A stretch of 61,685 bases of DNA from Lachnospiraceae bacterium (GTDB lineage Bacteria > Bacillota > Clostridia > Lachnospirales > Lachnospiraceae): NCBI GenBank assembly GCA_017431345.1, contig JAFRLH010000014.1, positions 1-61,685 of the forward strand, read 5' to 3'. Shown here one piece after another: positions 57,446 to 61,685 of the stretch. Numbering within the stretch: position 1 is the stretch's first letter; each line of letters begins with the position of its first letter. The notes below the pieces were generated by a model. It searched no databases. It was not told where the DNA came from and saw only the letters and a program-made list of their open reading frames with translations. The position numbers and the translations under genes were made by a program.

Positions 57446-57474
57446 TTGTGAGTCGTCTGCTGTCCGTTTATAAT
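57446..57474 (+). promoter_or_regulatory. Promoter of the macrodomain region
   Basis: TTGTGA (57446-57451), a 17-base spacer and a perfect TATAAT (57469-57474) lie 80 bases before the truncated macrodomain ATG. Since no terminator is seen before the HTH, macrodomain and SirTM genes, this promoter may now drive the whole acquired block. Confidence 0.65.
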
Positions 57475-57553
57475 GAAGGAATGGGGGGTGCTTTTTGAGT
57501 GCCTCCGCCTGACTGCGGACGATATACTTGTCATTCCTGAAGGAGAAACACTC

Positions 57554-57994
57554 ATGAACCAGAATGAACGCCTGGATTATTTATTGGAACAGTTTAAAGA
57601 GGATTCCGGAGAATACCGGAACCTGGAGACCCCGGCGGATCCGGTGGGCAAGAAATGTATTCTGCGGTCTCTGATGAATATTCGTATGCCCCGCATGATA
57701 GCTCCCTCCGTCCTGGCTGTTCAGGACGAGTACCTGAAGGAGCGTAACCGGGAAAACGGGATCGTGGAGATCAAAGATATTCCGACGATCGCCGATCAGG
57801 GAAGCCGGCATGCCCATGCAGGGATTATCTCCATCTGGCAGGGAGACATTACAAGACTTGCGGCTGATGCCATTGTGAACGCGGCGAATTCTCAGATGCT
57901 GGGCTGCTTTGTGCCGATGCATACCTGTATCGACAAAGCGGCACCTACCTCAATCACACAGGTATACAACAAAAGAATGGCAAGGTGCTCGTAA
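57554..57994 (+). pseudogene. Truncated zinc-macrodomain (ADP-ribose hydrolase) gene
   Basis: The first 127 codons match the N-terminal extension and first third of SAV0325/SpyMacroD-type zinc macrodomains, with WQGDITRLAADAIVNAAN near residue 95 and the zinc loop C118, H123 and C125. Homology stops right after HTCID, and an unrelated tail of 19 codons follows. The catalytic second half is gone. AAGGAG precedes the ATG at 57554. Base composition is like the rest of the chromosome, unlike the following genes. An intact, diverged homologue lies at 59426-60208. Confidence 0.8.
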
Positions 57995-59439
57995 ACCTTG
58001 CATTACCTATGCTTATGCCGGATGAAGACGCTAGGCCAGGAATTAAACTGGAATTTATAAGAAGACAAAAAGGGATTAGTAGAAAAGAACTTGCTGATAA
58101 ATTAGAAATTGCTCCAGGGGCTTTGTTTAATCTTGAAAATGGATTTAATCCAATCCATTTTGATGATGCATTGAAACTTGGAAATGCACTTGACGTTGAA
58201 CCAGATATCTTTATTGATGAAAGTGCAAGGTTTTGTGCTTCAGGTTATGGAGAGAAGATAAGAATTATTCGACGAGCTTGTGACGCAACTCAGGAAGAGT
58301 TTTCTAAAATGATTGGTGTTACCCGATCGACTTTATCCTGCTGGGAAGCAGAAATTGGTGAGTACCATCCAAGTTCAGTATTCTATTACAAACTGAAAGA
58401 AATTGCTGAAGAAAAAAATATAGATATTAACCGTCTTAATAGTGATCCAGACAGCTTCAACGATGATTATGAACTGTTCTTAACAGGAGACTATGGTAAA
58501 AAAATAAAATATATCCGTTCTGCTTATGGTGTAACACAGACAGAGTTTTGTAATATGATTGGATATACAAGTGGGACATCATCATGTAATTGGGAATCCA
58601 TGACTGAGAAACCGCTTCGAAAGGCCTATAATAGGATAAAGTTTGTGGCAGAAGCAAAGGGTATAGACATTAACAAGCTAAATGCTAATCCGGATTATTA
58701 TAAGGACGAGTATTCAAGATTTGTAGAGAAGAATAGTGGCGCTAAGATTAGATATATCAGATTGCAGTACAGAGCTTTTACTGATGACTTTGGTAAAATG
58801 CTAGGTTGTTCAGGAAATGCTGTTTGTACATGGGAACGAGGTCAATGTATCATGGGGCGCCAGTATTTCGATGAGTTAAAGAAACTTGCAGAAGCAAAAG
58901 AAATCAATCTTGAGAGTTTAGATTACAATCCTGATGTATTCAAAGATGATTACGATAGGTTCTGTGTAACAGGTTGTGGAAAGAAATTAAGATATATCAG
59001 AAATATCTGTGGAATGTCGGCAGAAAAGTATGCAGAAGTTATTGGAGTAAGCAGGCAAACTATTTTTATCTGGGAGTCTGAATTAGTTCAAAGAGGAACA
59101 ATCAGAAGACCTGGAAGAGAAAATTTTGAAAAAATCAAACAAGTAGCTATAGAACATGGGATTGATTTAGACACAATAGATGAGGAACTGGCCAAGGTTG
59201 ATGATTATGAAGTTTTTTGCCAAAACGGATTTGGAGCTAAGATAAAGTCTCTTAGAAATGTATATGGAATGTCACAGCGTGCATTTTCAGAGCTCGTTGG
59301 AGTTTCTGTTGAGACGATTAGTAGATGGGAACGTGAGGGCAAAGTTAGAGGAAAAATAGCGTTTCCATCTAAGGAAAGGTTCCGAGAATTTAAGAGATTG
59401 GCAGAAGAGAAAGGAGTTGATTTTCTTGAATCATGCTGA
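57985..59439 (+). CDS. Protein of six tandem XRE helix-turn-helix units
   Basis: The 484-residue protein is built from six XRE-like units beginning near residues 19, 89, 171, 252, 332 and 417. Each opens with a G-x-K-I/L-x-x-I/L-R pattern, has a helix-turn-helix such as TQEEFSKMIGVTRSTLSCWE or SQRAFSELVGVSVETISRWE, and units 2-5 end with a D-D-Y-x-x-F spacer. No other domain is present. The start is uncertain: GTG 57985 overlaps the broken macrodomain frame, ATG 58009 and 58015 are alternatives, none has a good ribosome site, and the frame stays open upstream. The gene is AT-rich. Its 3' end overlaps the macrodomain gene by 14 bases. I do not recognise a named family. Confidence 0.8.
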   Translation: MLVNLALPMLMPDEDARPGIKLEFIRRQKGISRKELADKLEIAPGALFNLENGFNPIHFDDALKLGNALDVEPDIFIDESARFCASGYGEKIRIIRRACDATQEEFSKMIGVTRSTLSCWEAEIGEYHPSSVFYYKLKEIAEEKNIDINRLNSDPDSFNDDYELFLTGDYGKKIKYIRSAYGVTQTEFCNMIGYTSGTSSCNWESMTEKPLRKAYNRIKFVAEAKGIDINKLNANPDYYKDEYSRFVEKNSGAKIRYIRLQYRAFTDDFGKMLGCSGNAVCTWERGQCIMGRQYFDELKKLAEAKEINLESLDYNPDVFKDDYDRFCVTGCGKKLRYIRNICGMSAEKYAEVIGVSRQTIFIWESELVQRGTIRRPGRENFEKIKQVAIEHGIDLDTIDEELAKVDDYEVFCQNGFGAKIKSLRNVYGMSQRAFSELVGVSVETISRWEREGKVRGKIAFPSKERFREFKRLAEEKGVDFLESC

Positions 59440-60208
59440 GCAAAGAGTATGGATGATTCAGCAACTGCTGGATGAAGATTTAAATTATAAAGGCTATACA
59501 ATTCCTAATGATACTAATGAGCAGAAAGATATGCTCAGAGCACTTATGAATGTTAGAGAACCTAAGCCTATTAGTCAGGAATTTCTTGATATTCAGGATG
59601 AATATCTTAAAGAAGAGAATAATTCTGTAAAAATTACAGATGTGAATGATTTAACTCCTACCAAAAACGATGACAGATTATATCTTTGGCAGGGAGATAT
59701 AACTGCATTAAGGATTTCAGCAATCACGAATCCTGCCAATGACCGTATGTGTGGATGTTTTCAGCCGCTTCATTCCTGCGCGGATAACATTATTCACTCA
59801 AAATCTGGAGTTCAGCTTCGCGGCGAATGTTTTAGAATAATGAAAAAGCAGGGACATCCGGAACCTACAGGACAAGCCAAAATAACTCCAGCATACAACC
59901 TACCATGTGATTATATTCTTCATACAGTTGGACCAATTGTTCAGGGACCATTAACAAAGAAGCATGAAGATTTGCTTGCTTCTTGCTATAAGTCGTGCCT
60001 TGATCTTGCGGATAAGAATGGAGTTACTGAGATAGCTTTTTGCTGTATCTCTACTGGAGTATTTATGTTCCCAAATCAGAGAGCTGCTGAGATTGCTGTA
60101 GAGACAGTTAAAAATTGGCTTGATGAGACAGGCAGTGAGATGAAGATTGTTTTCAATGTATTTAAGGATCTTGATTTTGAAATATATGAAAAACTGTTAA
60201 ATGGTTAA
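59426..60208 (+). CDS. Zinc-containing macrodomain protein (protein-ADP-ribose hydrolase type)
   Basis: The 260-residue protein has the N-terminal helical extension of SirTM-linked macrodomains (NHAEQRVWMIQQLLDED). The macrodomain then shows GDITALRISAITNPAN near residue 90, zinc-loop residues C111, H116 and C118 (GCFQPLHSC), and CCISTGVFMFP near 207. Family members remove ADP-ribose from proteins modified by SirTM. Translation most likely begins at TTG 59426, because AAGGAG lies 9 bases before it inside the preceding gene and the protein then aligns with its relatives. The SirTM gene follows after 20 bases. Composition is AT-rich. Confidence 0.88.
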   Translation: MNHAEQRVWMIQQLLDEDLNYKGYTIPNDTNEQKDMLRALMNVREPKPISQEFLDIQDEYLKEENNSVKITDVNDLTPTKNDDRLYLWQGDITALRISAITNPANDRMCGCFQPLHSCADNIIHSKSGVQLRGECFRIMKKQGHPEPTGQAKITPAYNLPCDYILHTVGPIVQGPLTKKHEDLLASCYKSCLDLADKNGVTEIAFCCISTGVFMFPNQRAAEIAVETVKNWLDETGSEMKIVFNVFKDLDFEIYEKLLNG

Positions 60209-60228
60209 GCTATAAGGAGTGTTTTATA

Positions 60229-61224
60229 ATGACAACGGCTAAGATCAGATCGTTTCAGCCAAATGGATATCAGGAAACAATAAAAAAAGGTTTAAGTGCC
60301 ATACATAGCTTTAACAGCGGTATGTCCCTTGGGAAAGATGATGATACAGAGCAGCTTGACAGATTAAAAGAAGAAATAAAGACTGCTGATGCTATTGTTA
60401 TTGGAGCCGGGGCAGGACTTTCTACTTCCGCAGGGTTTACGTACAGTGGAGACCGGTTTAAAAAGTGGTTTTCTGATTTTGAAGAAAAATATGGTTTTCA
60501 AGACATGTATTCAGGCGGGTTTTACCCATACAAAACCAAGGAAGAGTTCTGGGCATATTGGTCAAGATATATCTACATCAACAGATACCTTGATGCACCT
60601 AAAGATACTTATACAAAGCTTTATAACCTTGTTAAGGATAAAGATTACTTTGTGATTACTACAAACGTGGATCATTGCTTTCAGAAAGCAGGCTTTGATA
60701 AGAAAAGATTATTTTACACTCAGGGAGATTATGGTCTGTTTCAAAGTTTGAATCCTGCAATTAGGGAAAACTTTAATAATGAAGACTGGGTGATGAATGC
60801 CATGGAATCTCAGGGATTTGTTAAGGATGGGAATGGAATTTTTGCAATACCATCTGGTGGTGGAGTCAGAATTGAAATTGACAGCAGTTTGATTCCAAAG
60901 TGCCCGATTGATGGTAGTGATGTTACCATTAATCTTAGAAGTGATGATACATTCCTTGAAGATGAAGGCTGGCATAGAGCATCAGCGGCTTATTCTGATT
61001 TCCTTAGAAGACATGAAACCCTGCATGTGCTTTTCCTGGAGCTTGGGGTAGGCAGCAATACACCAGTAATAATCAAGTATCCATTCTGGCAAATGACAAT
61101 GGAAAATGAAAAAGCTACATATGCATGCTTGAATTACAAAGAGGCATACTGTCCCAAAGAGATAGAAGATAGGAGCGTATGCATTAACAGTGATATAGAT
61201 GAGCTTTTGGATAAACTGGCATAA
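60229..61224 (+). CDS. Class M sirtuin (SirTM), putative protein ADP-ribosyltransferase
   Basis: The 331-residue protein has the NAD-binding sirtuin loop GAGAGLSTSAGF (59-70), TTNVDHCFQKAGF (144-156) and TQGDYGLFQ (164-172). The catalytic His of deacetylase sirtuins is replaced, as in SirTMs, which transfer ADP-ribose instead. Of the zinc-knuckle cysteines only one of the usual pair remains here (KCPIDGS). SirTMs of Staphylococcus and Streptococcus act with a macrodomain, a GcvH-like carrier and an LplA2 ligase; here only the macrodomain is in view. TAAGGAG precedes the ATG. A terminator follows. Confidence 0.9.
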   Translation: MTTAKIRSFQPNGYQETIKKGLSAIHSFNSGMSLGKDDDTEQLDRLKEEIKTADAIVIGAGAGLSTSAGFTYSGDRFKKWFSDFEEKYGFQDMYSGGFYPYKTKEEFWAYWSRYIYINRYLDAPKDTYTKLYNLVKDKDYFVITTNVDHCFQKAGFDKKRLFYTQGDYGLFQSLNPAIRENFNNEDWVMNAMESQGFVKDGNGIFAIPSGGGVRIEIDSSLIPKCPIDGSDVTINLRSDDTFLEDEGWHRASAAYSDFLRRHETLHVLFLELGVGSNTPVIIKYPFWQMTMENEKATYACLNYKEAYCPKEIEDRSVCINSDIDELLDKLA

Positions 61225-61254
61225 TTTCATAAAAAGAAAGAAATTATCGGTATT

Positions 61255-61280
61255 AAAGGGAGATACATTTCTCCCTTTTT
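61255..61280 (+). terminator. Terminator of the SirTM block
   Basis: AAAGGGAGA (61255-61263) pairs with TCTCCCTTT (61270-61278) and T continues. It lies about 30 bases after the SirTM stop. The gap 61281-61504 beyond it shows no gene I can support. Confidence 0.88.
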
Positions 61281-61504
61281 ACATTTGTGTTGCTCATGAT
61301 AGAATAATTAAGAATCGCAGTTTTTAGAGGCAAATTATATTCCAGTTTTATAGACGATGACAAATCGCAATTTATGGAAATGTGAGTCGGCTTTCAGGCC
61401 AAAGGTATCGGTTTTCAGGAACCGGCGCGCTTTTAGGAAAAGAAGGCTCATTCGAGTGTCTTCGTGTGAAGTCGGGTATGAAGCTGGTTTTTTGCAAAAA
61501 GGTA

Positions 61505-61533
61505 TTGACGGTAAATATTTTACACTATATACT
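61505..61533 (+). promoter_or_regulatory. Promoter of the gene at the right edge
   Basis: TTGACG (61505-61510), a 17-base spacer and TATACT (61528-61533) lie 36 bases before the ATG at 61569. Confidence 0.65.
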
Positions 61534-61568
61534 ATTTACAATAACAGCAATGGATAGGAGAAAGGCAA

Positions 61569-61685
61569 ATGGCAATAATAAAATTACCGATAGACGAATC
61601 TCTTCCGGCCTATGTCAATGAGTCCATAGTGGCGCTTGAAGAACTTGTACGAAGTGACCATTTCAGTGCATTTGAGAAACTGGCA
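61569..61685 (+). CDS. Unrecognised gene, 5' end only
   Basis: An ATG with ATAGGAGAAAGG upstream opens a frame that runs off the right edge after 39 codons (MAIIKLPIDESLPAYVNE and on). The start signals and promoter are good, so it is very likely a real gene. The residues show no motif that names a family. Confidence 0.6.
   Translation, partial: MAIIKLPIDESLPAYVNESIVALEELVRSDHFSAFEKLA

Follow-up and report, generated by a model that had tools for sequence, protein, structure and literature searches.

We conclude that a three-gene block near the right-hand edge of a 61,685-nucleotide stretch of Lachnospiraceae DNA (assembly GCA_017431345.1, contig JAFRLH010000014.1; the whole stretch is referred to below as the window) is the left (attL) end of a mobile element integrated inside a resident Zn-macrodomain (Zn-macro) gene, since that gene is split and, in two relatives, its halves flank the element. 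The block encodes an array of six XRE-type helix-turn-helix (HTH) units, a Zn-macrodomain and a class M sirtuin (SirTM). We consider it highly probable that the element belongs to the large serine recombinase (LSR) type, that it sits in the zinc-loop codons of the resident gene, and that the XRE array is the split-off tail of its own recombinase; a switching role of the array, its coupled translation, and the replacement of host functions by the carried macrodomain and sirtuin are suggestions built upon this.

The window is the entire contig C15 of its own genome (G000; 3.27 Mb, 94 contigs; handles beginning with G, C, and L denote genomes, contigs, and loci), and its right edge is the contig end. 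The block differs in composition from its surroundings, with a G+C content of 0.36–0.38 over positions 58001–61000 compared to 0.43–0.56 in the remaining 1-kb windows, and its genes lie on one strand, the HTH and macrodomain genes overlapping by 14 bases and the macrodomain and sirtuin genes being separated by 20 bases, as an earlier sequence-only reading had described. The products were also correctly recognized by that reading. The six XRE units, cut by eye, can be aligned with one another, and Pfam HTH_3 passes unaided in three stretches of the HTH protein. The macrodomain matches NF003163 (E = 1.9e-110), its zinc loop of the Cx4HxC form, followed by Asp, reads CFQPLHSCADN, and the NAAN motif of Zn-Macro reads NPAN. 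The sirtuin has QG replacing HG, the catalytic Asn (TTNVD), GVGSNTP, and a Zn-macro neighbor, as is typical of class M (motif definitions from PMC4518038). The same reading overlooked a truncated resident Zn-macro gene upstream (ORF 57473–57994), which has host G+C, ends in 58 bases of element DNA, and overlaps the start of the HTH gene by 10 bases.

It is this truncated gene (macro') that reveals the site-specific nature of the junction. Positions 57830–61345 are 97.8% identical to Butyrivibrio sp. MC2013 (L003; Lachnospiraceae), with rightward matching ending at 61345, and 243 bases spanning the block start recur at the contig end of L004 (CACXXH010000055.1). L004 is binned as Fibrobacter succinogenes, reflecting either true transfer or mis-binning. 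The macro' genes differ among the window, MC2013, and L004, and the junction is the identical base in all three, lying within the codons of the zinc loop plus the following Asp (C-x4-H-x-C-I-D-N; loop definition from PMC11490716). The missing second half of the gene, together with a resident SirTM, is found at the end of contig C59 of the window's own genome, and contig C42 of the same genome has a complete macro-SirTM pair. In G207 and G292 both macro halves are present on one contig and on the same strand, 52 and 31 kb apart, respectively, and the uncut site is seen in complete macro genes of G476, G553, and C42. First halves in the window, MC2013, G207, and G292 are 69–74% identical to the C42 gene, compared to only 45% in G553, 50% in G080, and 47% in L004, which represent other resident types. 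Spread of the block by homologous recombination between macro genes, with no site-specific integration, would be in line with the homology of the macro parts and with a distal half that was not found in MC2013 or G553. We regard this explanation as very improbable, however, as the junction falls at the same base in macro' genes differing just upstream, attL and attR have a common core with an LSR at the opposite end, and further members of the family, inserted in unrelated genes, are bounded by these same ends.

The right end of the G292 and G207 elements is the 3′ end of an LSR gene (608 and 610 aa). These proteins and the G201 LSR contain Resolvase, Recombinase, and zinc ribbon domains, with the catalytic part whole. 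The G292 element also codes for a relaxase, an ArdC-like protein, and an NlpC/P60 protein, as well as a TraG match slightly under its cut-off, and a relaxase is present in the G201 element too (G207 was not scanned for transfer genes); the intact relatives, carrying relaxases, are probably mobilizable or conjugative elements, and the copy in the window's genome is defective, its parts lying on two or more contigs. Close LSRs (E up to 1e-100) were found in four out of 394 family genomes (G292, G207, G201, and G169; the family, order, and class genome sets are samples drawn, not all genomes), and in all four, as well as in G568, LSR and left-end HTH gene share one contig. In G201 and G169 a left-end two-unit HTH gene is followed by a TnpV gene (G201, PF14198) or a TnpV-like ORF (G169, by eye); no TnpV was noticed in the macro-targeting branch. 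The G201 element (~17 kb) splits an isochorismatase-like gene, named from its translated flanks (gene names for some loci are readings of ORF translations by eye). An order-wide scan detected such LSRs in 15/392 genomes; among the fetched stretches of G568, G559, and G688, a left end occurs only in G568, where an HTH gene of this kind lies ~9 kb away from the LSR, and the G559 and G688 LSRs are located near contig ends. A predicted dyad-symmetric attP, a short common core, and a split target gene are all present. An interpretation of the ends as IS-like terminal inverted repeats was dropped after the LSR and the split target emerged. Plasmids and phages contained 5 and 1 records, respectively, matching the LSR at about 28–31% identity and gave no tblastn match to the L010 HTH protein, and in viral contigs there was a single weak match to the HTH and none to the LSR or the macro; the left-end pattern matches seven viral stretches, which look unrelated by eye.

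Joining the element ends in silico places the HTH gene in the LSR reading frame in all four elements with both ends resolved. The core was taken as the AA common to attL, attR, and empty sites in macro elements and, in G201, was set by requiring in-frame reading of the split target, with the G568 join being unambiguous from shared bases; the join point was fixed by the target gene's own frame rather than by that of the LSR. The resulting attP is 50 bp long, with arms in dyad symmetry at 17–19 of 23 positions and identical spacing (4/4). Across the joint, the LSR is extended without a stop from 608 to 761 aa in G292, from 610 to 1006 aa in G207, and from 612 to 765 aa in G201; the joints of G568, whose LSR has one internal stop, and G000, whose LSR is reduced to a tail, keep the frame as well. 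With attP inside the LSR frame, an excised circle would code for a single LSR-XRE protein. Traced back past the core into host sequence, the HTH frame hits a stop in five of seven macro-gene left ends (G292, G207, MC2013, G080, and G553) and runs without one in the window and L004. Beyond the core, the encoded peptide has NHT...GK-x-L conserved in ten sources plus G568, several of these having been found, and all printed, via patterns requiring part of it. Uncut frames, in which two HTH domains follow the zinc ribbon of an LSR, occur in 3 of the 13 order-scan LSRs whose tails were examined (G622, G636, and G653; 733–782 residues); seven others end with no HTH, and the last three are G568, G559, and G688. 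From the shared frame across the joint and these uncut proteins, we read the six-XRE protein as, most likely, a C-terminal domain that the LSR lost on integration. Coordinates of the features are given in Table 1.

Table 1. Features of the element end and the split resident gene in the window
Feature	Position	Strand	Basis and remarks
5′ part of resident Zn-macrodomain gene, cut after zinc-loop codons C-I-D	57473..57936	+	NF003163 profile positions 2–123 of 265; 69% to intact C42 gene
Recombination core AA of attL	57935..57936	+	Comparison of attL, attR, and empty sites
Right arm of predicted attP (left end of element)	57937..57960	+	Common to MC2013, L004, G207, G080, G553; dyad with right end, 18/23 arm positions
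HTH gene, six-unit XRE array; most likely detached C-terminal domain of element LSR	57985..59439	+	GTG start, 484 aa; LSR frame across joint, left-end HTH homology, LSR-borne HTHs exist
Element-borne Zn-macrodomain (apparent replacement for broken gene)	59426..60208	+	TTG start, 260 aa; NF003163, Cx4HxC, clade of element macros 100/99
Element-borne class M sirtuin (SirTM)	60229..61224	+	331 aa; QG, TTNVD, GVGSNTP; best PDB match 5a3a
3′ flank with terminator-like inverted repeat (by eye)	61225..61345	+	Final stretch common to window and MC2013; genomes diverge beyond

The left-end arrays are homologous and collinear: the window and G292 arrays are 48% identical over 149 residues, the window and G201 arrays 28% over 123 residues (1.6e-17), and those of G292 and G201 31% over 133 residues. 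Rows for a G169 array and for one G201 HTH query, read in the wrong frame, were left out. XRE unit 1 is orthologous in all four arrays that entered the comparison (100/99); the units past it are of the unit-2 type. The sequence-only reading had placed the HTH protein within an undescribed ADP-ribosylation module, noting that the usual partners GcvH-L and LplA2 were out of view, and indeed none was noticed in the fetched neighborhoods (ORF lists by eye, no dedicated search), the window itself reaching 461 bases past SirTM. Recurrence of the arrangement, which it had proposed as a check, was borne out, as the SirTM/Zn-macro pair stands behind a multi-HTH gene in MC2013, G553, and G207 as well as in the window, and in G292 the macro gene does so without SirTM. 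An array working in such a module, as SirTM target or as regulator of the macro-SirTM operon, could account for adjacent, same-strand, overlapping genes being kept together in these four genomes, and for HTH proteins that differ (42%, window vs G207) next to flanking DNA that is 84–92% alike (MC2013 vs G207). We nevertheless find this role improbable: elements that have neither macro nor SirTM carry homologous HTH genes at the same left end, next to TnpV-like genes, and the HTH reading frame continues that of the LSR across att in 4/4, which argues against the proposed ADP-ribosylation carrier and against a part made for the macro-SirTM pair, though the protein may still regulate that pair.

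If the array is a recombinase tail, the macrodomain and sirtuin behind it call for an explanation of their own. The six element macros group in a single clade (100/99), apart from four resident macros picked from search hits; the G234 member is interrupted by an internal stop close to its start, with no macro' found ahead of it in the 14 kb searched. The three second halves of split genes are 71–98% identical to three residents, 55–57% to the fourth (G456), and 49–52% to the element macros. An element macro follows five of six left ends in macro genes (window, MC2013, G207, G292, and G553; L004 was left out, its contig ending too soon), and neither macro nor SirTM was found in four fetched stretches of elements elsewhere (G201, G169, G051, and G568; both ends are not resolved in G169 and G051). 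Further to that, in three of five hosts (G207, G292, and MC2013) no complete close homologue of the resident macro was found besides that of the element, further macrodomain hits in G292 and MC2013 being weaker only (32–35%) and not classed. Because of this clade, placement, and lack of another complete homologue, the element macro looks like a replacement for the broken resident gene, and the element SirTM has the same appearance. The latter is complete in the window, MC2013, and G553, limited to residues 1–187 in G207, and absent in G292; a resident SirTM is present behind attR in G207 and, shortened at its start, in G292. The pattern fits an eraser that has to be supplied and a writer that is needed only once, although five genomes are few and the window's genome has all of these genes.

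A less generous explanation, which contests only these suggested roles, is that macro and SirTM are hitchhiking cargo and the HTH gene a dead leftover, with no replacement and no switch. The missing or partial SirTM of G292 and G207, the G553 HTH gene, open only over its 133-aa end, and the loss of everything behind the left end in G080 all speak for it. On the other side, the macro is complete in 5/6 elements in a macro gene and absent from the four stretches of elements elsewhere, and a 10-base stop/start overlap of macro' and HTH gene is kept in the window, G207, and G292 despite a different start codon in G292 (the HTH start being GTG or ATG). We therefore see cargo without function as a minority possibility, though a real one.

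Several observations weigh against the account we prefer, that of a self-splitting LSR element carrying replacements for its target. In the window's own genome the right end of the element keeps only LSR residues 552–604, on a different contig, and the C-half of the split gene was not found in MC2013 or G553. None of 391 class genomes (≤ 2 mismatches) and no viral contig contained an intact attP or an uncut ORF with this type of att, and, because no assembly has the intact site, the LSR-XRE fusion rests on in silico joining. Seven of the 13 order-scan LSRs stop at 552–614 residues with no HTH, their partners not having been sought, and a codon test across the joint covers 12 codons, too short to carry weight. 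As to replacement, the 9 kb fetched from G080 contain a left end in a macro gene but no element macro, and G000 and G553 each retain one other complete Zn-macro, which questions the need for it. The G080 case and the seven LSR tails that lack an HTH leave our estimates unchanged. The idea of a recoded, immune target in the element macro found no support, its zinc-loop region differing from residents no more than other parts do.

We suggest the following course of events. The element would recombine with the zinc-loop codons of a resident Zn-macro gene, splitting it; the excised circle would encode a single LSR-XRE protein, and integration would sever the XRE domains, so that a short LSR remains at attR and the XRE array becomes a gene of its own at attL. 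In macro-targeting elements the macro'/HTH overlap suggests translational coupling of the freed array to the host macro' message. The balance between integration and excision may depend on whether LSR and array are attached to each other; direction control is itself conjectural, and the sequence cannot tell which direction the XRE tail would favor. The carried macro may replace the ADP-ribosylation eraser, and SirTM the writer, broken by integration. Taken as a whole, this would make the LSR an enzyme remodelled by its own reaction, with a 2–6 unit XRE array attached in the circle and, in the chromosome, a short LSR plus a free array made from the broken host operon, each state's enzyme being suited to the reverse step, and with the element also carrying the eraser (and writer) that keeps the host healthy. 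We offer this full version tentatively, as somewhat less than an even bet.

Tn4451/TnpX-type elements (PMC5704250, PMC3158075) share with the present ones an LSR, a 2-bp or short core, insertion inside genes, a relaxase, and TnpV, matched here beside the left end in G201 and by a TnpV-like ORF in G169. They differ in that here attP lies inside the LSR frame and, in the macro-targeting branch, macro and SirTM occupy the place where others carry TnpV. The Tn4451 recombinase is said to need no recombination directionality factor (RDF) (PMC5704250), and TnpX residues 598–707 bind DNA (PMC2810336); this region may be the equivalent of the XRE tail. Archaeal suicidal (SSV-type) integrases (PMC8371274) likewise have attP inside the integrase gene, which is split on integration, a feature seen here on the in silico joint only. 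Unlike those tyrosine recombinases, whose catalytic domain is cut off, the present enzyme is a bacterial serine recombinase with its catalytic part whole, losing only the C-terminal HTH part. In mycobacteriophage integration-dependent immunity (PMC9262239), attP also lies in a coding gene and integration changes the protein, but the integrase is a tyrosine one, attP is in the repressor gene, and the target is a tRNA. Known SirTM/Zn-Macro pairs (PMC4518038, PMC11490716) resemble ours in having a class M sirtuin beside a Zn-macro, of the lone-pair type, whereas here the pair rides a mobile element that split a resident Zn-macro. IME_Rho_tet is a serine-recombinase integrative and mobilizable element with 21-bp inverted end repeats, and the accessible part of its description (PMC12904643) does not mention a split recombinase.

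Self-disrupting recombinases have been called exclusively archaeal (PMC8371274), and a literature search, with subscription journals mostly outside its coverage and sources accessible in part, returned neither an LSR that is divided by its own attP nor an LSR element with a homologue of its target. If true, our account would provide a bacterial serine self-split integrase that sheds only its DNA-binding tail, a natural protein-level answer to the LSR direction choice, parallel to engineered integrase-RDF fusions, in which an RDF fused to a serine integrase alters direction (PMC5737554). A carried target homologue would explain how a conserved catalytic motif can serve as attB without harm to the host. 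The role of lone SirTM/Zn-macro pairs also becomes testable: if it is the eraser that needs replacing, harm would be expected from the writer on its own.

An anti-phage function, which the sequence-only reading had raised, appears very unlikely. The 52-kb G207 element does have a defence-like cluster of PADLOC matches to PDC-S02, AbiJ, BrxL, SpbK, and PglZ, with an unmatched protein between AbiJ and BrxL (L085 10241–19322, G207 C18), but these are located towards the LSR end of that single element, and no PADLOC model matched macro or SirTM in the block, where generic HTH models matched the array. Rfam at gathering scores gave no matches at five loci. Beyond the shared block, positions 61346–61685 are single-copy in the window's genome and start an ORF at the contig end, of which 39 residues are available, with no Pfam match.

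Further observations come from related loci. Upstream of macro' in MC2013 (L003 1774–1950) is a 59-residue SirTM fragment, hinting at an earlier rearrangement, and in G553 C1 (L148 11409–12362) a second, more distant SirTM-like gene (41–43%) lies directly upstream of the broken macro' gene. Element ends in G051 (L040/L054) and G568 (L124/L125) are inside IS200 TnpA-like sequence (flanks, by eye). In G688 C59 (L123/L130), a single open frame joins the first ~311 LSR residues to a macrodomain C-half starting CADNAIHSAAG. Finally, the LSR-2xHTH genes of G622 and G636 (L113 and L114) are located beside a partial sigK and are probably, on our own reading, parts of skin-like elements whose recombinase bears XRE domains; they are similar to the present LSR in having two C-terminal XRE domains and differ in that LSR and HTH stay one ORF, and motifs resembling the att arms are seen by eye after their stop codons.

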